Source: a bacterium (Candidatus Blackallbacteria) CG13_big_fil_rev_8_21_14_2_50_49_14 (lineage in GTDB: Bacteria; Cyanobacteriota; Sericytochromatia; UBA7694). Taken from it: 64,000 nt of DNA. The translations under genes and the position numbers were made by a program. Shown piece after piece: positions 3,437-47,510 of this stretch (its first letter is position 1; the number at the start of each line of letters is the position of its first letter). The stretch spans positions 62,001-126,000 of the forward strand of contig PFGG01000075.1 of NCBI GenBank assembly GCA_002783405.1. The letters run 5' to 3'. The notes under the pieces are model-generated. The model saw nothing but the letters and a program-made list of their open reading frames with translations, made no database searches and was not told the DNA's origin.

Positions 3437-4579
3437 ATGCGTTTTGCCACCCGTGCTATTCATATCGGCCAAGAAGCCGACTCTGCAACTGGCGCCACTA
3501 TTGTTCCGATTTATCAAACCTCAACCTATACACAAACAGATATTGGCGAACACAAGGGATACGAGTATTCCCGCACGGGCAATCCCACGCGCGCCGCGCT
3601 TGAAAAATGTCTTGCCTCCCTTGAAGAAGGCAAATTTGGCCTGGCCTTTGCCTCTGGCATGGCAGCCACCAGTACGGTGATCTCACTGCTGAACGCCGGG
3701 GATCATGTGATTGCCTGCAATGATCTCTATGGTGGAACCTACCGGGTTTTTACCAAAGTTTTCAATCGTCTGGGCATTGCCTTTGATTTTGTAGATGCGC
3801 GGGAAATTGAAAATATTCAAGCAGCCATTCGCCCAGAAACACGTATGGTCTGGCTCGAAACCCCCACCAATCCCCTGCTGCGTCTATCAGATATTCAGGC
3901 GATCGCAGAACTGAGCCAGCAACGGGGTTTGAAACTGGTGGTCGATAATACCTTTATGAGCCCCTATTTTCAACAGCCCTTAAAATTAGGCGCCGATCTG
4001 GTCGTTCACAGTACCACCAAATATATTGGGGGGCACAGTGATGTGATTGGCGGAGCTGTCATGACAAATGATCCTGACCTGTACGCGCAACTTCAATTTT
4101 TACAGAACAGCATGGGAGCCGTTCCTGGCCCCATGGACTGCTGGCTCACCCTGCGGGGCCTCAAAACACTGGCCCTGCGGATGCAGGCCCATGAAAAAAA
4201 CGCCTTGAGAATTGCAGCGTTTCTCGCCACCCACCCCAAAATCAGTCAGGTCTATTATCCTGGCCTAGACTCTCACCCCCAGTATCTGCTGGCAAAAAAA
4301 CAGATGAGTGGATTTGGTGGCATGATCTCTTTTGAGGTTACCGGCGGCATTGAGGCCGGAAAAACAGTTGCCCGCTCCACCCAGATTTTTTCTCTGGCAG
4401 AAAGCCTGGGAGGAGTCGAATCTCTGATTGGACATCCAGCCACCATGACCCATGCCGCTATTCCCGCAGCACAACGTCAGGCCGTAGGCCTCAGTGATGG
4501 CTTGATTCGTATTTCAGTGGGAATTGAAGATCCTGAGGATCTGATTGAAGATCTAAAACAGGCTTTGGAAAGAGTTTGA
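3437..4579 (+). CDS. Cystathionine gamma-synthase/lyase family PLP enzyme
   Basis: A 380-residue member of the Cys/Met metabolism PLP-dependent family, full length for the family. Hallmarks include YSRTGNPTR near the N-terminus, the cofactor-stacking region ASGMAA, the VDNTF motif and the PLP-binding lysine in STTKYIGGHSD (Lys195). These enzymes interconvert homocysteine, cysteine and cystathionine (MetB, MetC, CGL). Sequence alone does not separate synthase from lyase, so no symbol is given. An AGGAG site precedes the ATG. The gene stands alone, divergent from the NHL lipoprotein and nearly abutting a convergent tRNA gene. I saw no SAM riboswitch or T-box in the 180-base upstream gap. Confidence 0.92.
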   Translation: MRFATRAIHIGQEADSATGATIVPIYQTSTYTQTDIGEHKGYEYSRTGNPTRAALEKCLASLEEGKFGLAFASGMAATSTVISLLNAGDHVIACNDLYGGTYRVFTKVFNRLGIAFDFVDAREIENIQAAIRPETRMVWLETPTNPLLRLSDIQAIAELSQQRGLKLVVDNTFMSPYFQQPLKLGADLVVHSTTKYIGGHSDVIGGAVMTNDPDLYAQLQFLQNSMGAVPGPMDCWLTLRGLKTLALRMQAHEKNALRIAAFLATHPKISQVYYPGLDSHPQYLLAKKQMSGFGGMISFEVTGGIEAGKTVARSTQIFSLAESLGGVESLIGHPATMTHAAIPAAQRQAVGLSDGLIRISVGIEDPEDLIEDLKQALERV

Positions 4580-4582
4580 AAA

Positions 4583-4663
4583 TGCGGGTGAGAGGACTTG
4601 AACCTCCACGCCCGGAGGCACCAGATCCTAAGTCTGGCGCGTCTGCCATTCCGCCACACCCGC
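4583..4663 (-). tRNA. tRNA-Leu (anticodon TAG)
   Basis: Read on the minus strand, a 7-bp acceptor stem GCGGGTG/CACCCGC encloses a D-arm, and a 5-bp anticodon stem CCAGA/TCTGG holds the loop CTTAGGA (anticodon TAG). A long class II variable arm (GCCTCCGGGC region) and a T-arm with TTCAAGT follow. The long variable arm and anticodon fit leucine. The discriminator is A and CCA is not encoded. It lies three bases from the end of the convergent metB-like gene. Confidence 0.95.
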
Positions 4664-4695
4664 AATATTCCTATACTATCACAGGTCTGTAGAAT

Positions 4696-5640
4696 TTAAA
4701 CGGGATCGGCGCAGAAGGTGATCGGGTGTTGATAAAAAAAACGATGCACCGCCAAACAGTAATGCGCTGAAAAATTCTGAATGACCTGCTCACGTTGCCC
4801 CTCATCCAGGGGCTTAGCAGCCAGGGGAACGTCTTCAGGAAGACTGAGCGTCATGCCGCAAATTTCAGAACTGTCAACAATGCCAAAACGTGCTCCGGCC
4901 TCAAAATACTGTTGTAAATAATGGCTGTCGAGATTATTTAAATGGGGATTGCTGCCCTCAGGAGCGGCGGTAAAGGTTCGGGGTTGGGCAATCAAAATCG
5001 GATGCAAATGGAAACAATGGGCCACAAAACTGTTGGCATCCTGCCATTCATAGACATGAGAAGGCCAAGAGGTAAAGTTTTCAGCGTCTTTAAAACTGGC
5101 AGAGAAATGCGGATGGGGATATTGTAGCGCCAAGCGCACCAAAGCACCTGAAGACAATTGAATCAAGCCTTCTCTGCGAAAAGCATCAAGCGCCTCTGTG
5201 GCCTGAAAATGAAGGCGCGGCCCCGCCAAAAGAATCAGATCATACTGAGGAGCCAATGCCAGCAGCTTCGCAAAACTGCCCACTGAATACAGATTATCCG
5301 CTGTCAGCGGAATAAAACCCGCACCATGGATTCTTGCCAGTTCCAAAGCATCCGCGTAACAGCCACTCAACAAGGTATGCTTATAAAAGCGGTGGGGCTG
5401 ATGTGCGGGTATTTCAAAGATATTCCATTGCAACTGAAATCTTTGCGATAAAACTGCAAATAGGGGATCCGCTTCAATTTTTTGCCGCGATTCAGCAGTG
5501 GTATAGAAAAAAATCACAGCATTTGCATCAAAGGGGCCTTGGCTGAGGTTGCCAGGCGCTAAAAGTGAGGGCAAAGCCCAACGCAGAAAAACCTCAGTAT
5601 AACGTTCGCCCCAAACAGGCAAAGCCAAGAAATAACGCAT
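4696..5640 (-). CDS. Unknown protein, feo operon distal gene
   Basis: A 314-residue soluble-looking protein with no signal peptide. The N-terminus (MRYFLALPVWGERYTEVF) and the central alpha/beta pattern with several His-rich turns could fit a nucleotide-sugar type fold, but no glycosyltransferase DxD motif is evident and I do not recognise a family. Its ATG follows the stop of the small Cys-rich FeoB-associated gene by only three bases, so it is probably co-transcribed with feoAB. Whether it has any role in iron handling is unknown. Confidence 0.75.
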   Translation of the reverse strand: MRYFLALPVWGERYTEVFLRWALPSLLAPGNLSQGPFDANAVIFFYTTAESRQKIEADPLFAVLSQRFQLQWNIFEIPAHQPHRFYKHTLLSGCYADALELARIHGAGFIPLTADNLYSVGSFAKLLALAPQYDLILLAGPRLHFQATEALDAFRREGLIQLSSGALVRLALQYPHPHFSASFKDAENFTSWPSHVYEWQDANSFVAHCFHLHPILIAQPRTFTAAPEGSNPHLNNLDSHYLQQYFEAGARFGIVDSSEICGMTLSLPEDVPLAAKPLDEGQREQVIQNFSAHYCLAVHRFFYQHPITFCADPV

Positions 5641-40608: not shown

Positions 40609-43500
40609 CTAGCGCATCTTCACCGCCTTCTGAATGACTTGCTCTGCCGCCAGAAATTCAGGCCTCCGCAATTCAGCTGGCAAGGTCTTACTCAGCATCA
40701 GCATGGCATAGAGCTGGGGCCAGGAGCGGTGATGGGACAGATTCAAAGCCCCATTTTTCGCATAGGCCAGCGCGAAGGTCTGCAAGGCCTGGTGCAAACG
40801 CTTCAACTCAAGCTGAATCTGGGGCTGAGCGGCAAAAGCCTGCTCTACCAGGGGCCAATCCAACTCAGGCTCGGTGCTGCGCAAGAGCACATGCAAGCCA
40901 GAATCTTTGCCAGGCTTGGGTTCCAGCAAGAGCAAAATGCGATGAACCAAATACTGCTCCGTATCATAGGCATTGCGATAATAGTAGCTCAGACGATAGA
41001 CATCATCCGAAAGATAACGCCAGGGTCTTGCCAAATTTTGAGCCAGTTTCAAAGCCGCCTGTTTGCTTCCTGCCTGGCGCAGGGCCTCTGCTTTCCAACC
41101 CCGCAAATCGCCACTTGAAAAATAAGGCAAGGCTTTTTCAGGCTGATTCTGAGCCAGGTACCAAGCCCCATGCCAAACATCTGGCTGACGACCCGTGGAC
41201 ACCTCTGGTGCCTGACAGGCCAAATTCACCGAGTTCAGCTTCCTCCCAGCAGAGAACCTGCCCTTCAGCGCTTTAAAATAGGTTTGAAGTGATGGCAGAG
41301 TTAAGGCGATTTGCTTGTCAGCACACAATTCTGGCCGTCTTCTCAGCAGCGAGTTGCCCCAAAGTGCAGCCTCTGGCAAGGATTTCTGATCTGCCTGAAA
41401 CTGAATCTGGGCCGAACGCTGATAATAAGCCAGGGCCTCGGCAGACAAACCCGCCTCCTGTGCCACGTTTCCAGAGCGGAACCAGGCCTCTCCAGCCTGG
41501 GCCGGAAAACGCAAGGCCAAGTCTTGCAAAGTCGCCAGGGCCTGACGGTATTGAAGCAGGTTCTGCTGAAGCTCAGCCATTTGCAGCAAATCCTCTGGCT
41601 GCGGAGCCTGTTTCACCACCTCTTGCAGCGCTTTCAGAGCCGCCTGGGGCTGACTCTCTAACTGAGCCAGTTTTGCCTGGATGCGCACCTGATTCATTGC
41701 CAGGCCCTGTTCTCCCGCCTTGAGCCAGAAACGGGCCAAGTCTGAATAATAGAGTACCTCTTGCCGTGCGTCTTCATCCTGGGCATAGCGCCGGGAACCG
41801 GGCCAACTTGATTTCAAGCCTGTCTCCAGGGCTGATTCAGCCATCAACAAAGCAGCATCAGCATCCCAGGGGCTCACCAAAAGACGCTGAAGACCCACTG
41901 TGGAATTCAGCCTGCGACGTTCTTCCCAAGGATCGCCCCAATCTTCGGACTTTGTATCTTTCAAGTAAATAAACTTGATAATATCTGAGCTTAAAAGCCA
42001 GCGGTCAAAGGCACTGCGGTGAAAAGCCCCTTCAGACTGACTGATCAGACGCGGCAGCGGTTCAGCTTGAATACCCCCATAGGCAAGCCCACAAAACAGG
42101 ATACCAGGCAGCGCATAATGGCGGCCCGCCCGCAAAGCGATCTGAAGTGGGGCTTTTAAAGGCTCCCAAAACCCCTGGCGAAAGCGGTAAAGATCGTAGA
42201 GACGAACCAATAGCGCCATTCCCCAAAGCAGCCAGGCTGGCCAGGCGGGTGTATGCAAAACAGCCAGAAAAGCCACAAAGAGCGCCGGTGCAAGGGTGAT
42301 ACTGAGGCCAAATAGAAAAATACCTCCCCAGAGCAAGACTTCGCCGCCCAGCAGGAAGAAAACAGCAACTTCGCACCAGGCACCAAGCTGCAAATACTGC
42401 CAAATCTCAGGCTGAAACCCGCCCAAGATCAGGGCAAATCCTGCCAAACCCAGCAGTAAGCCACCTTGCAAGGCCCAGCCTCCAAGATATTGCCCAAAAG
42501 CGTTCTGAGGTCGCGAGGCCCAAAATTCCCAGTATTTTTGCCCCAGCATGCGGGGGGGAATCAAGAGAATCATGGCCCCCATTCCCACACAGCCCCCCTG
42601 CAGAATCGTCAGATAAAGGGTATCGATGCCTGTGGCAGTTACAAAAGCCGGATTGCGCAGAAAAATCAGGGTCAGCACCAGCAGCCCCAAGCCTCCCACA
42701 AACAGCAGTTGTAAATAGGTTTGACGTGCAGGCTGGGTAAACAGCACAAACTGCTGCAAACGGCCCCGCCAGCCTCTGGCTGTGGCAAAAGAGCCGCTGC
42801 CCGCTCTCGGCGCAAGCAAACGGGTGAGTGTTTCACTGCTTTGTCCCAAATCCAGCGAAGCGTCGATAAAGAGATCGCCCTGGTATTGAAAAATCTGACG
42901 GTAGAGCAAGAACAAAAACCCAAACCCTCCTCCCCAGGCAAGCACCCTACCCAAGGGCAGCCCCCAGGCCTGCCAATCTGAGAAATAAATCAACCAGAGC
43001 AGCAGCAGAGCAGCGGGCAGACTCAAGGAAAGCAGTTGCGCCGGTGAAACACACATCAAAAGCGCAAGAATCAGGCTCATGCCGATTACCAGCAGCGTGC
43101 TTTCCCAGGAAAGCTCACGCCCGGAATCATAGCGCAGGGATTGAGACCAATACGTCAGGCCCAGTAAAACCAAGCTGATTCCTGCCCACCAGCGCAGATA
43201 TTCACGGCGAAGCAATGCCAGCAGTTCCATACGTTGCAGGGAACGGGTCTGCAGCCACTCCCCATACAGGGTCAGAGAAAGCAAAGGCAGACTGAGCGTC
43301 AACAGTGCCACCCGGATACTTTGACTGAAAAAGGCAAACCCCCAGCGAAACAGATCAAAGGAGCGATAGCCCCATTGATTGGGAACTTCCAAAAGACCCT
43401 GAATCAGGGAAAAACTTGAAAGCAAGAGCAGCAAGACAAAAGCCAGCAAAAGACTCTTGCGAAAACTTTGCCGAAACAACGCTATGGGGTGGCTGGACAT
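40609..43500 (-). CDS. Large membrane protein with TPR domain, ABC permease partner
   Basis: A 963-residue protein. The first 470 or so residues contain about ten to twelve membrane helices in two blocks. From about residue 520 the protein is soluble and largely TPR-like (repeats such as LESQPQAALKALQEVVKQ). It overlaps the end of the ABC ATPase gene by 19 bases, so it is almost certainly the membrane subunit of that ABC-2-like transporter. A permease fused to a TPR domain of this size is unusual. The substrate is unknown; the GntR(YtrA)-ABC context suggests envelope stress or peptide export. Confidence 0.75.
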   Translation of the reverse strand: MSSHPIALFRQSFRKSLLLAFVLLLLLSSFSLIQGLLEVPNQWGYRSFDLFRWGFAFFSQSIRVALLTLSLPLLSLTLYGEWLQTRSLQRMELLALLRREYLRWWAGISLVLLGLTYWSQSLRYDSGRELSWESTLLVIGMSLILALLMCVSPAQLLSLSLPAALLLLWLIYFSDWQAWGLPLGRVLAWGGGFGFLFLLYRQIFQYQGDLFIDASLDLGQSSETLTRLLAPRAGSGSFATARGWRGRLQQFVLFTQPARQTYLQLLFVGGLGLLVLTLIFLRNPAFVTATGIDTLYLTILQGGCVGMGAMILLIPPRMLGQKYWEFWASRPQNAFGQYLGGWALQGGLLLGLAGFALILGGFQPEIWQYLQLGAWCEVAVFFLLGGEVLLWGGIFLFGLSITLAPALFVAFLAVLHTPAWPAWLLWGMALLVRLYDLYRFRQGFWEPLKAPLQIALRAGRHYALPGILFCGLAYGGIQAEPLPRLISQSEGAFHRSAFDRWLLSSDIIKFIYLKDTKSEDWGDPWEERRRLNSTVGLQRLLVSPWDADAALLMAESALETGLKSSWPGSRRYAQDEDARQEVLYYSDLARFWLKAGEQGLAMNQVRIQAKLAQLESQPQAALKALQEVVKQAPQPEDLLQMAELQQNLLQYRQALATLQDLALRFPAQAGEAWFRSGNVAQEAGLSAEALAYYQRSAQIQFQADQKSLPEAALWGNSLLRRRPELCADKQIALTLPSLQTYFKALKGRFSAGRKLNSVNLACQAPEVSTGRQPDVWHGAWYLAQNQPEKALPYFSSGDLRGWKAEALRQAGSKQAALKLAQNLARPWRYLSDDVYRLSYYYRNAYDTEQYLVHRILLLLEPKPGKDSGLHVLLRSTEPELDWPLVEQAFAAQPQIQLELKRLHQALQTFALAYAKNGALNLSHHRSWPQLYAMLMLSKTLPAELRRPEFLAAEQVIQKAVKMR

Positions 43501-44408
43501 AGAGCACCTCCGGCTGTTAGGGTGGATGTGTAGATAATAAAAATCTCCTCCAGTGAGAGGGGGCTGTGTTCAATACGCACCTCCGGAAAACGCCGGAGGA
43601 GTTTTTCTTCTTCGTTTGCAGACCAATTTTCGTGAATCAGTTCCAGATAACCCGCATAGGCTTTGCTGTGGACAATGCCCTGAAAATCTTTCAAATCAGA
43701 AACCTGTAGATTTTTACTGAGCAAGGTCACTCTGCGGCTTTGCGCCTTGAGGGCCTCCAAGGATTTTTCGAGCCGCATCTGCCCATTGACCACCAGGCCA
43801 ATCTGGTCGGAAATTCGCTCCAAATCGCTCATCTGATGTGAAGAAATCACGATCGTGGTGCCTGATTCGTGAATCAGCTCAATCATGCTTTCCAAAAACT
43901 CCTGACGCGCCAGGGGATCCAAACCACCGGCAGGCTCATCGAGAATCAAGAGACGGGGACGGTGCCCAATCGCCAGAATCAAGGCCAGTTTTTGACGATC
44001 TCCACGCGAAAGGCTGAATACTCTTTTCAAGGGATCCAGTTCCAGGCGCTTCAGCCATTGCTGAACATAGGCCGCATCCCAGGCCGGATAAAAAGACCCG
44101 TTATAGGCCAGAATCTGATCCACACGCAACCAGGGAATCAGTTGCATGCTGTCTGAGCTATAGCCCATCTGCTGACGTAAATGCAAGGGCAAGACTTCTG
44201 GGCGGTGCCCCAAAACCGCTACCTCACCCCCCGTCGGACGAATCAGGTTCATTAAAATCCGCAAGGTGCTGGTTTTGCCTGCGCCATTGCGCCCCAACAA
44301 GCCGTAAACACAGCCTTCGGGAACCTGCATATCCAGGCTCTTTAAAGCTTTTTGACGACCGTAGGCCTTTTCAAGCCCCTTCGCCGCAATCACATATTCA
44401 GACGCCAT
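43482..44408 (-). CDS. ABC transporter ATP-binding protein
   Basis: A 308-residue ATPase with Walker A GRNGAGKT (residues 39-46), signature LSRGDRQK, Walker B LLILDEPAGGLDP and the H-loop region VISSHQMSDLE. The 70-residue C-terminal tail is longer than in minimal ABC-2 ATPases. The signature LSRGD differs slightly from the LSGGQ consensus, as is common in YtrB-type exporters. The ATG abuts the stop of the gntR gene, and its end overlaps the membrane protein gene. Confidence 0.93.
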   Translation of the reverse strand: MASEYVIAAKGLEKAYGRQKALKSLDMQVPEGCVYGLLGRNGAGKTSTLRILMNLIRPTGGEVAVLGHRPEVLPLHLRQQMGYSSDSMQLIPWLRVDQILAYNGSFYPAWDAAYVQQWLKRLELDPLKRVFSLSRGDRQKLALILAIGHRPRLLILDEPAGGLDPLARQEFLESMIELIHESGTTIVISSHQMSDLERISDQIGLVVNGQMRLEKSLEALKAQSRRVTLLSKNLQVSDLKDFQGIVHSKAYAGYLELIHENWSANEEEKLLRRFPEVRIEHSPLSLEEIFIIYTSTLTAGGALCPATP

Positions 44409-44786
44409 TTAAGGAAGAACCTCCTGCCAGTTTTTTTCAACCAAGTTCACGGCCTCTGGGCAGCTAAACCCTAACCAGGCCATATCTTTACCAAAGCGAC
44501 CCGCCAGTTCATTGCCCTGCTGATCGCGATCCTGCGCTGATTGGGTCAGCGCAGATTCACTCACAAAACTGCCCCTGCCCACACGCGTTGTGAGCAGACC
44601 TTCGCGTTCCAATTCGCGAATGGCCTTGGCCACCGTATTGGGATTGACCCGCAATTGCAGGGCCAGATCCCGAATCGTGGGCAAGGGGTCACCCGGAGCG
44701 AAAACGCCCAAACCAATGGCATGCCGGACTTGCTCCATAATCTGAAGATAAATCGGCGTGCCACTTTCCGGATTAATACTCAGCAC
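44409..44786 (-). CDS. GntR family regulator, YtrA type
   Basis: A 125-residue regulator. The N-terminal winged helix-turn-helix shows PIYLQIMEQVRHAI, PLPTIRDLALQLRVNPNTVAKA and ELEREGLLTTRVGRGSFV; the short C-terminal part is the small dimerisation domain of the YtrA subfamily, which lacks a large ligand-binding domain. GTG at 44786 is the likely start, since AAAGGAG ends five bases before it. YtrA proteins usually repress their own operon with ABC genes, and a perfect palindrome overlaps the promoter here. Confidence 0.9.
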   Translation of the reverse strand: MLSINPESGTPIYLQIMEQVRHAIGLGVFAPGDPLPTIRDLALQLRVNPNTVAKAIRELEREGLLTTRVGRGSFVSESALTQSAQDRDQQGNELAGRFGKDMAWLGFSCPEAVNLVEKNWQEVLP

Positions 44787-44808
44787 AGTATCTCCTTTCA
44801 CATTTTAT

Positions 44809-44846
44809 TTGTACTATTGTACTAGTCAAATAGTACAATAGTACAA
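44809..44846. promoter_or_regulatory. Four-octamer operator of the GntR-ABC operon
   Basis: A perfect 16-6-16 inverted repeat. Each arm is itself two direct copies of an octamer, TTGTACTA twice, then GTCAAA, then TAGTACAA twice. Two GntR dimers could bind side by side. It covers the -10 box and start site of the promoter at 44830-44858. Confidence 0.85.
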
Positions 44847-44858
44847 TTCAGATTTCAA
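44830..44858 (-). promoter_or_regulatory. Promoter of the gntR-ABC operon
   Basis: On the minus strand -35 TTGAAA (44853-44858) and -10 TACTAT (44830-44835) with 17-base spacing, start near 44823. The -10 lies inside the operator, as expected for autorepression. Confidence 0.6.
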
Positions 44859-44877: not shown

Positions 44878-44907
44878 TTGATTATCTGCAAAGGCTTCGG
44901 CTATGCT
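44878..44907 (+). promoter_or_regulatory. Promoter of the DUF2807 lipoprotein gene
   Basis: -35 TTGATT (44878-44883) and -10 TATGCT (44902-44907) with 18-base spacing, about 40 bases before the ATG at 44948. Confidence 0.5.
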
Positions 44908-44947: not shown

Positions 44948-45646
44948 ATGATTCAGAATTCCCACAAACGGTTAAAAAAATCTTCGCTCTACTTCAAGCA
45001 AAGCCTCAAAGCCCTGTGCCTGCTCACCCTTGTCTTCACGCCCGGCTGCGCATCTGAAGAAGTTCAGGGCGAAGGCGAAGTAAAACAGGAAGAACGCACC
45101 CTTGAAAACTTTCAAGCCATTGCCGTAGAGCACAACTATACCCTTCAAATCGAAAGCGGCAAGCCCCAGAAAGTCACGGTTGAAGCGCCAGCAAACCTGC
45201 TCGGTCAGATCGAAACCAGTGTACAGGGCGGAACGCTGAAAATCACCAACGCCAAGGGCATTCATTTTCGCTCAAGTTCGCCCTTGAAAATCAGCATTTC
45301 AGTGCCTGTTCTCAACCGTTTGGAAGCTTCAGGCGCATCCAATCTGACCCTGAATGGGATCAGTGGCCCCGCTTTTTCAATGCAACTGGATGGGGGCCAC
45401 CAGGTCAGGGTTCGTGGTGGAGAGCTTGAAAAACTCACGATCAAAGCTGCGGGAGCAGCCAATATTGAAACCTTCATGCTACGCGCCCAAAGTGTCGATC
45501 TTCAAGTGAGCGGCGCAGCAGCAGTACGTGTGCGTGCCGAAAAACAGCTCAATGTCGATGCCAGCGGTGCCTGTAAGGTGGAATACACAGGCAACCCCCA
45601 AATCACTCAGAAATTATCTGGTATGAGCGAGTTGCACAAGCTTTGA
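44948..45646 (+). CDS. DUF2807 (GIN domain) lipoprotein
   Basis: A 232-residue protein. A signal peptide ends in a TPGC-type lipobox, a short acidic spacer follows, then a DUF2807 beta-helix-like domain with repeated turns such as LEASGASNLTLNGI and LQVSGAAAVRVRA. Family members are envelope proteins of unknown function, often near ABC exporters or anti-sigma genes. The ATG at 44948 is preferred over one at 44903 because AGAGGAG lies about 8 bases upstream. It is divergent from the gntR-ABC operon. Confidence 0.88.
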   Translation: MIQNSHKRLKKSSLYFKQSLKALCLLTLVFTPGCASEEVQGEGEVKQEERTLENFQAIAVEHNYTLQIESGKPQKVTVEAPANLLGQIETSVQGGTLKITNAKGIHFRSSSPLKISISVPVLNRLEASGASNLTLNGISGPAFSMQLDGGHQVRVRGGELEKLTIKAAGAANIETFMLRAQSVDLQVSGAAAVRVRAEKQLNVDASGACKVEYTGNPQITQKLSGMSELHKL

Positions 45647-45677: not shown

Positions 45678-47462
45678 TTAACGAGAATAGGGCAGCGCAA
45701 TCATCGCTGAAACGGGGTGTTGCTGAACAAAACGCATGATAATGGCTCCTCCAACTCCCATCATGATCAGACCGAGAAGCGGCTGAGGTTCGAACTGAGC
45801 ACTCAAAAGCACGACCAACAACAGCAGAAGATTGTAGCTGGCATGCGCCAAAATGCTGACCTTCAAACTTCGCGAATAGACATAGAGCACCCCAAACAGA
45901 CGTCCGACCCAGGCCAGATAGAGGATAGCCTGAAGATGCATCAGCCCAAAATAAAGTGAAGATTTAAACAGGGCTTTAGGAAGCGTCGACTTTGATGCCA
46001 AACGGTGCAGTAAAAGACCTCTGAATAAAAACTCCTCGACAATCGGAGCGATCACAACAGCCAAGAGCAAAACCATCAAATTGTGTAGATTGTCACGGGG
46101 GAAAAGTACAGGGCGCAGAAAGATATTTTGCGCAGCATTGGCATCATGCCATTGAAAAACATGAATGATTCCCAAAATAAAGAGCACAAGCGCGCCACTG
46201 AGTTTCCAAACCCAGTGAGAATCAAAATTTTGCTCAATAGGCCCTAGAAAATCTTGAAAATGAAAACCTGCCCTTTCAAAAAATCTGCTCATTTTGGAAA
46301 AAAGAATCGTATAGACACCCATAGCCCAAAAAAGAGTAAAAAATGTCAATTGACTCTTTTCCTCAAAGAACACAAGCTGTTCACTGTTGAAATCGACTTG
46401 AAAAAACAAAAGATCCAAGAGATAGACGCATAGAAAGCTGAGGAAAGTCAAAATCAAAAACTTCAAGAGCCCGGAGGAGAGGCGGATCTCGGCAAAGTTT
46501 CGATGTTCTTTCTGAACATACACCTTGAGAGGCCCAGAAATAAATCCCTGATGCAAAAGATGTTCTAAAAAAGGACATGTCATTGTTTTCACGTTGGACG
46601 GAGGCGGAGCTTTAAATATTTGAAGGTCAAAATCTTTCCTCCAGAGTTGAAAACAGAAGTGAAACATGAAGGCGAGCAAACACAGGGCACAGACTCCAGC
46701 AACGATTTGAAGCCATTGCGGAATAACGACAAGATCCCACTTCAAAAGATACAGCCCATAACTGAAGCCTGCTATCAGGACATTTAAGAATTGATGAAAC
46801 AGCAAGGTTCTTCTCAGACTGGTTTTCCACAGGTAATGAAAACCGAGAAAAGCGCCAATTAAGCTCCCCTGCAAGAAAAAAGGCTGGTAGAGATAGGCAC
46901 TCAATAAACAGAGGAAAATAAAGGACAGCGCGGGAGACAGGCCGCGCTCCAAAAATCCGCGAAAAATACCCAGCAGGCCCAACCAGGCAAACAGCAAGGG
47001 CTGAACAAATGCGAATATGACAAGTACAAAAACGAAAACGAAAGGCATCTCTTTAAAGGTTTCAAAATATCTAAAAAAAGCTTGAAAATAAATGAATTGA
47101 TTAAAGTCATGCGAAGGGATCAACCCTAAAGAAAAACTGAAAAGCAGCAAGACTCCTCCCCAAAACATCCATTCTGTGGATTTGGAACGCTGTCCGCCTG
47201 TTCTCAGGGGCCCATGAAAAAGTGGCCAGCGTCGAAGACCTAAAGTTAACGCTGCAGGAAAAACGAAAAATAATTGAATTGAAAACCCGAGTAAAAACCA
47301 GATATAAAATGAGACAGAAACAGGGTTACAACCATGATCATCTCTAAGTAAAGCGTCAAAGCCATAGAGGTTCAGCATCAGCAACATCAAAAATAAAAAG
47401 GCCAGCCAACCCCATTCAAAATTAGGTTTGCGCTCAGAAATGACAGACTGTTTTTTGCCCAT
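45678..47462 (-). CDS. CPBP family intramembrane metalloprotease
   Basis: A 594-residue polytopic membrane protein. The C-terminal 200 residues carry the CPBP (CAAX/Abi) motifs: VEEFLFRG, the FGLMH motif and HASYN. The N-terminal 390 residues are an extra membrane region not usual for the family, whose members are often near 250-300 residues. These glutamate-type intramembrane proteases process prenylated or peptide substrates. The ATG at 47462 is chosen over a TTG seven codons upstream. It has its own promoter. Confidence 0.86.
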   Translation of the reverse strand: MGKKQSVISERKPNFEWGWLAFLFLMLLMLNLYGFDALLRDDHGCNPVSVSFYIWFLLGFSIQLFFVFPAALTLGLRRWPLFHGPLRTGGQRSKSTEWMFWGGVLLLFSFSLGLIPSHDFNQFIYFQAFFRYFETFKEMPFVFVFVLVIFAFVQPLLFAWLGLLGIFRGFLERGLSPALSFIFLCLLSAYLYQPFFLQGSLIGAFLGFHYLWKTSLRRTLLFHQFLNVLIAGFSYGLYLLKWDLVVIPQWLQIVAGVCALCLLAFMFHFCFQLWRKDFDLQIFKAPPPSNVKTMTCPFLEHLLHQGFISGPLKVYVQKEHRNFAEIRLSSGLLKFLILTFLSFLCVYLLDLLFFQVDFNSEQLVFFEEKSQLTFFTLFWAMGVYTILFSKMSRFFERAGFHFQDFLGPIEQNFDSHWVWKLSGALVLFILGIIHVFQWHDANAAQNIFLRPVLFPRDNLHNLMVLLLAVVIAPIVEEFLFRGLLLHRLASKSTLPKALFKSSLYFGLMHLQAILYLAWVGRLFGVLYVYSRSLKVSILAHASYNLLLLLVVLLSAQFEPQPLLGLIMMGVGGAIIMRFVQQHPVSAMIALPYSR

Positions 47463-47510
47463 GATAGACCCAACCCATCTCAAATCATCGATTTTATGCT
47501 TAGCCCCCTA

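Follow-up and report, generated by a model that had tools for sequence, protein, structure and literature searches.

Judging from its sequence and setting, the 38-bp palindrome at 44809–44846 of the window (the whole stretch of DNA that was analysed, 64,000 nucleotides) almost certainly serves as operator for the GntR repressor of the YtrA subfamily whose gene lies downstream of it. The explanation that best accounts for the observations as a whole, to which we assign a probability of roughly 0.9, is that a regulator dimer would occupy the inner pair of half-sites, that further subunits would bind outside it, and that the promoter would thereby be blocked. The identification as a YtrA-type autorepressor operator is strongly supported by the fold of the regulator, the gene order, the single site in the genome, the conservation among orthologs and the presence of the motif upstream of most homologs.

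Sequence and uniqueness of the palindrome

The full sequence of 44809–44846 is TTGTACTATTGTACTAGTCAAATAGTACAATAGTACAA, which is laid out as TTGTACTA-TTGTACTA-GTCAAA-TAGTACAA-TAGTACAA. Checking of these letters showed that the internally duplicated, four-octamer 16-6-16 palindrome claimed in an earlier note on this DNA is exact: one arm is the reverse complement of the other, and each arm is an exact octamer duplicate. The inner octamers have their centers 14 bp apart; for the outer octamers, each of which lies 8 bp beyond its inner neighbor, the distance is 30 bp. Additional half-sites are thus present beside the main palindrome, the outer octamers matching at 8/8 and 8/8 positions. The elements are as follows.

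44809–44846, no strand assigned: predicted 38-bp operator, a perfect 16-6-16 inverted repeat of four octamers (8-8-6-8-8)
44817–44838, no strand assigned: inner 22-bp inverted repeat TTGTACTA-N6-TAGTACAA, predicted canonical YtrA-type dimer site
44809–44816, plus strand: outer half-site TTGTACTA, kept in four Sericytochromatia genomes
44839–44846, minus strand: outer half-site (TAGTACAA on the plus strand), kept in the same four genomes

The 64-kb window contained no perfect inverted repeat other than 44809–44846 that had arms of at least 12 bases and a loop of 3–20 bases, and all four occurrences of TTGTACTA fell within this site (mean of 0.38 in shuffled sequences, none of which reached 4). 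The earlier note had proposed an octamer search to define the regulon; a genome-wide search for the inner octamer pair returned a single site and no regulon beyond the regulator's own operon. A second inner site with up to 2 mismatches was not found in the 5.65-Mb genome, except for the operator's own shifted register. A genome-wide regulon was rejected for the relatives as well: like G000 (the present genome), G001 and G004 had no second inner site within 1 mismatch, and although G005 had one further site with 1 mismatch and G006 had three, these numbers were comparable to those of the reversed-pattern control (4 and 1).

A transcribed hairpin (terminator or attenuator) is possible for any long inverted repeat, and the palindrome might otherwise be a mobile-element remnant rather than a protein-binding site. 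However, no terminator-like site was called, and the leader from the palindrome center folded no better than shuffled sequences (z = −0.55), on which grounds the terminator or attenuator hairpin was rejected. The palindrome is not repeated in the genome, and the sites of homologs are mostly N6 or N7 repeats without long arms. We consider either origin so improbable as to deserve next to no weight.

Regulator gene and its operon

The palindrome lies between a regulator gene on the minus strand and a divergent DUF2807 gene on the plus strand. The regulator is the first gene of an operon in which it is followed by an ABC ATPase and a membrane protein.

44409–44786, minus strand: YtrA-subfamily GntR regulator, 125 aa, GTG start at 44786 (PF00392, E = 4.8e-18; AlphaFold2 model)
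43482–44408, minus strand: ABC transporter ATPase, 308 aa, abutting the regulator gene (PF00005, 9.7e-24)
40609–43500, minus strand: 963-aa membrane protein overlapping the ABC gene, a probable permease partner
44948–45646, plus strand: DUF2807 (head GIN domain) probable lipoprotein (PF10988, 1.1e-31)

The GTG start of the regulator is preceded by AAGGAGA at 44791–44797. The PF00392 match places a GntR winged helix-turn-helix at its N-terminus, and in the AlphaFold2 model (mean pLDDT 89.9) helices 12–25, 38–45 and 49–61 with two strands form this fold, followed by two C-terminal helices, 79–104 and 109–123. According to this model, the protein has the reduced C-terminal domain of the YtrA subfamily (about 50 residues, two helices), and the solved structures closest to it in fold belong to small GntR proteins, Cgl2947 and YtrASa among them. 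Membership in an ABC operon, another YtrA feature, is seen in the ATPase gene that abuts at 44408, with the order kept in G001, G004 and G005. YtrA regulators also have a long operator in front of the operon that encodes them, about 24 bp in length and with GT/AC distant from the dyad; such a site is present here, as judged from the inner 22-bp site with its preferred flanking A/T and from the motif upstream of 71/83 homologs. The protein is the only small GntR regulator of the genome; one more GntR match exceeded the cutoff, in a 478-aa frame that is MocR-like in length.

The 963-aa membrane protein appeared multi-spanning by eye and gave a weak TPR signal in its C-terminal half; Pfam matches over the cut-off were absent. 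It evolves fast, with 34% identity to its counterpart in the sister species, versus 80% for the ATPase.

Promoter candidates

Two sigma-70-like consensus matches directed at the regulator gene were found by the promoter scan.

44853–44858, minus strand: predicted −35 box TTGAAA of the ytrA-like operon, outside the operator
44830–44835, minus strand: predicted −10 box TACTAT, inside the operator
44802–44829, minus strand: alternative promoter TTGACT-16-TAAAAT, with its −35 box at the operator center

From TTGAAA-17-TACTAT, transcription would start near 44823, giving a leader of about 37 bases. The alternative has its −10 box TAAAAT at 44802–44807, and its start would fall within or beside the Shine-Dalgarno sequence. 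The earlier claim that the −10 box and the start lie inside the palindrome therefore holds for TTGAAA-17-TACTAT and fails for TTGACT-16-TAAAAT, whose −10 box is just outside. The promoter inside the palindrome is favored because only TTGAAA-17-TACTAT has an equivalent in the sister species, G001, at almost the same position (TTGTAA-18-TATTAT); the −10 box of the alternative is not kept there. In G005, TTGACA-17-TATTGT is found near the operator. By position, a bound operator would cover the promoter under either candidate.

Conservation in orthologous operons

The earlier note had called for a comparison of orthologous upstream regions and had set absence of conservation as grounds for refutation. 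The comparison gave the opposite result: the complete 8-8-6-8-8 design was directly upstream of 3/3 orthologous operons found. The regulator orthologs were 87% identical in G001, 69% in G004 (another genus of the same family) and 50% in G005 (another family of the same order), and the respective operators were TTGTACTATTGTATTATTTGACTAGTACAATAGTACAG, TTGTATTATTGTACTAGTTAACTAGTACAATAATACAA and TTGTATTATTGTATTAGTTAAGTAGTACAATAATACAA. Among 386 genomes of the phylum, the 38-bp pattern occurred in 4, with one copy each, and the reversed control occurred in 0 (3 mismatches allowed); the genomes with the pattern were exactly those with a regulator ortholog. The ABC ATPase ortholog (54–81% identical) was confined to genomes with regulator and operator, and a close ortholog was absent from G002, G003 and G006, in which the best matches were 31–36% identical. 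A counterpart of the 963-aa membrane protein was encoded at the same place in G001, G004 and G005. No viral copies of the regulator protein or of the 38-bp pattern were found.

Symmetry about the central dyad was retained in 17 (G000), 15 (G001), 19 (G004) and 17 (G005) of the 19 pairs. The outer octamers vary jointly, with C..G in G000 and G001 and T..A in G004 and G005, while the central dyad is kept; these paired C/T and G/A changes preserve the symmetry of the operator while the adjacent DNA diverges. Between G000 and G001 the operator was identical at 36/38 positions, as compared with 29 of the 70 aligned columns in the neighboring DNA. The G001 operator has lost a letter of an outer octamer and also one symmetric pair of the inner octamers.

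The same symmetry bears on a different arrangement, in which two dimers sit side by side, one on each 16-bp arm. GTAC is self-complementary, so each arm of 44809–44846 is an imperfect palindrome with a local dyad (GTAC-TATT-GTAC), and by inspection 6/8 pairs are symmetric within the arm. In relatives, however, this arm-local symmetry decays (left arm by inspection, 5/8 in G004 and 4/8 in G005), against 19 and 17 of 19 pairs for the central dyad, and homologs carry the central pair without outer octamers. The arrangement was rejected on the decay of arm-local symmetry, and we consider it very improbable.

Family-wide motif and spacing classes

The general YtrA site corresponds to the inner 22 bp, KTGTAYTA-N6-TARTACAM. 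With a spacer of N6 or N7, this motif was found upstream of 71/83 homologs from many phyla, as compared with a mean of 0.75 and a maximum of 4 in dinucleotide shuffles; a site was counted when at least 14/16 letters matched within 250 bases upstream to 40 bases downstream of the match start. The N6 class comprised 57 sites and the N7 class 14 (loci L042–L121). In the N6 class, the inner octamer was nearly invariant, A just outside it reached 0.85 and T at the second spacer base reached 0.78, and the remaining outer-octamer positions were weakly conserved family-wide. Since the outer octamers are weakly conserved except for the A beside the inner site, a YtrA site does not in itself require them. 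As far as these alignments go, the inner octamer pair by itself makes up the site shared across the family, and the outer pair is a lineage-specific addition.

When an outer half-site was counted at a match of at least 6/8 letters, it stood at gap 0 in 20/57 N6 sites, on both sides in 8 of them, and gaps of 1–10 gave counts of 0–9. At N7 sites it stood at gap 1 in 10/14. With one representative per 60% identity cluster, the values were 7/20 (N6, gap 0) and 3/6 (N7, gap 1). Because the N7 sites are few and come largely from particular clades (Periweissella, Paenibacillus), the coupling between inner and outer spacing is a lead only.

On that apparent coupling, N6 with gap 0 and N7 with gap 1, the four equal half-sites could reflect binding by a minimal YtrA protein as an obligate tetramer (dimer of dimers), a suggestion that we regard as tentative and rather unlikely. 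If it were true, two discrete tetramer geometries would take the place of loose accessory boxes. BusR is a GntR-type tetramer on a bipartite motif (PMC8517857), but that motif is separated by 22 bp and BusR has an RCK_C effector domain; such a domain was found neither by Pfam scan nor in the AlphaFold2 model of the 125-aa regulator, which ends after two short C-terminal helices.

Another possibility is that a single dimer binds the inner 22 bp and that the outer octamers add affinity through alternative registers or flank contacts. In its favor, the inner pair is family-wide and the outer pair is not, the authors of the YtrASa study propose one dimer as the minimal core complex (PMC6746942), and neighboring octamers are 8 bp apart, which is not a helical turn. 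Nevertheless, over about 50% regulator divergence the outer octamers are near letter-perfect or change in pairs, exceeding what flank contacts need, and YtrASa forms two complexes with Hill coefficients of 2.3–2.6 (PMC6746942). Binding by one dimer alone is possible, though we doubt it.

The divergent DUF2807 gene

The ORF tool placed the DUF2807 start at 44903; the ATG at 44948, after AGAGGAG, is likelier. The gene adjoins the regulator operon divergently in 3/4 genomes (also G001 and G005); it was not found beside the operon in G004, in which it is located on another contig. Strict pairing of DUF2807 with the regulator was rejected, since DUF2807 also occurs in genomes without the regulator.

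The site could also be a bidirectional operator that represses this gene. A distance of 101 bp separates the palindrome from the likely start of DUF2807, and the divergent arrangement recurs in G001 and also in G005, where an inserted toxin-antitoxin pair lies in between. However, no plus-strand promoter near the operator passed the scan, the DNA on the DUF2807 side is not conserved, the G004 gene lies on another contig, and YtrA divergons have been described as very rare (PMC4494728). A role in both directions is conceivable but, in our judgment, unlikely.

Between DUF2807 and the regulator in G005 (L124:4263–5002) are a PemK/MazF-like toxin gene (4316–4666) and a gene for a 76-aa probable antitoxin (4670–4900). 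On either side of the pair is a direct repeat about 63 bases in length, with blocks that are 92% and 90% identical. From this layout, it looks like the module was inserted into a once-shared intergenic region. In the window, 45678–47483 on the minus strand encodes a long membrane protein with a TTG start, whose C-terminal stretch resembles, by eye, a CPBP/CAAX protease-like region (EEFLFRG).

Proposed mechanism and comparison with known operators

As described above, the inner motif is conserved family-wide, from which we infer that the inner octamer pair TTGTACTA-N6-TAGTACAA is most likely the target of one regulator dimer. Further subunits, most likely a second dimer, would occupy the outer octamers, which share this dyad axis and are placed another 8 bp outward. 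The precedent of YtrASa suggests that the complex is larger and probably cooperative. It would span the −10 box and the start of the operon promoter; with these covered, RNA polymerase would be excluded and the regulator, ATPase and membrane protein genes would be off. An inducing signal would release the regulator; in relatives, membrane-active peptides or stress on the cell envelope act as such signals. The earlier note suggested that two dimers bind cooperatively and repress tightly, which is plausible.

YtrA of Bacillus subtilis, whose targets are ytrGABCDEF and ywoBCD, binds the inverted repeat AGTGTA-13-TACACT (PMC8060467). As predicted for the operon described here, this YtrA-subfamily repressor is encoded in an ABC operon that it represses, and its operator has the same half-site and almost the same spacing as 44809–44846. 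In the octamer frame, however, its spacer is N7, one base longer than the N6 found here, and it has two targets versus one site here. In the text consulted (PMC8060467), there is no mention of an outer pair with full symmetry.

In the operator of YtrASa from Sulfolobus acidocaldarius, each side of a core inverted repeat carries a direct repeat of the half-site next to it; the flanking repeats are protected and needed for strong binding, the start site is covered, and the regulator is autorepressed (PMC6746942). Two complexes form there, and the authors left their stoichiometry open (PMC6746942). This nested design is the same as at 44809–44846, but the YtrASa operator combines a 14-bp core with weak 3-bp flank boxes in a 32-bp repeat at an archaeal promoter, whereas the present site has four full, identical octamer half-sites over 38 bp. 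For 6 orthologous groups, Suvorova et al. (2015) reported that YtrA-type sites are accompanied by additional, weaker boxes 7–12 nt from the site center (PMC4494728); in contrast, the extra boxes here equal the main boxes and contact them without a gap. PmtR of Staphylococcus aureus has a 36-bp footprint over the start site (PMC5080381), and ClnR of Clostridioides difficile responds to LL-37, a tandem repeat having been proposed as its site (PMC6117091). Both are likewise small YtrA-type regulators in ABC operons, but with other ABC partners.

In our literature search, which did not reach the original B. subtilis paper (Salzberg 2011), YtrASa and the general report of additional boxes were the only results for a symmetric four-half-site YtrA operator. 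The kind of site is already known; the copy at 44809–44846 is unusually symmetric and is conserved in its order.

Sericytochromatia are non-photosynthetic relatives of cyanobacteria. The predicted operator extends the YtrA autorepressor-ABC switch, together with its operator, to this group, and the N6 and N7 spacing classes may help regulon prediction. The site would also offer a clean, symmetric test case for the question of why additional GntR half-sites exist and how many protomers bind.
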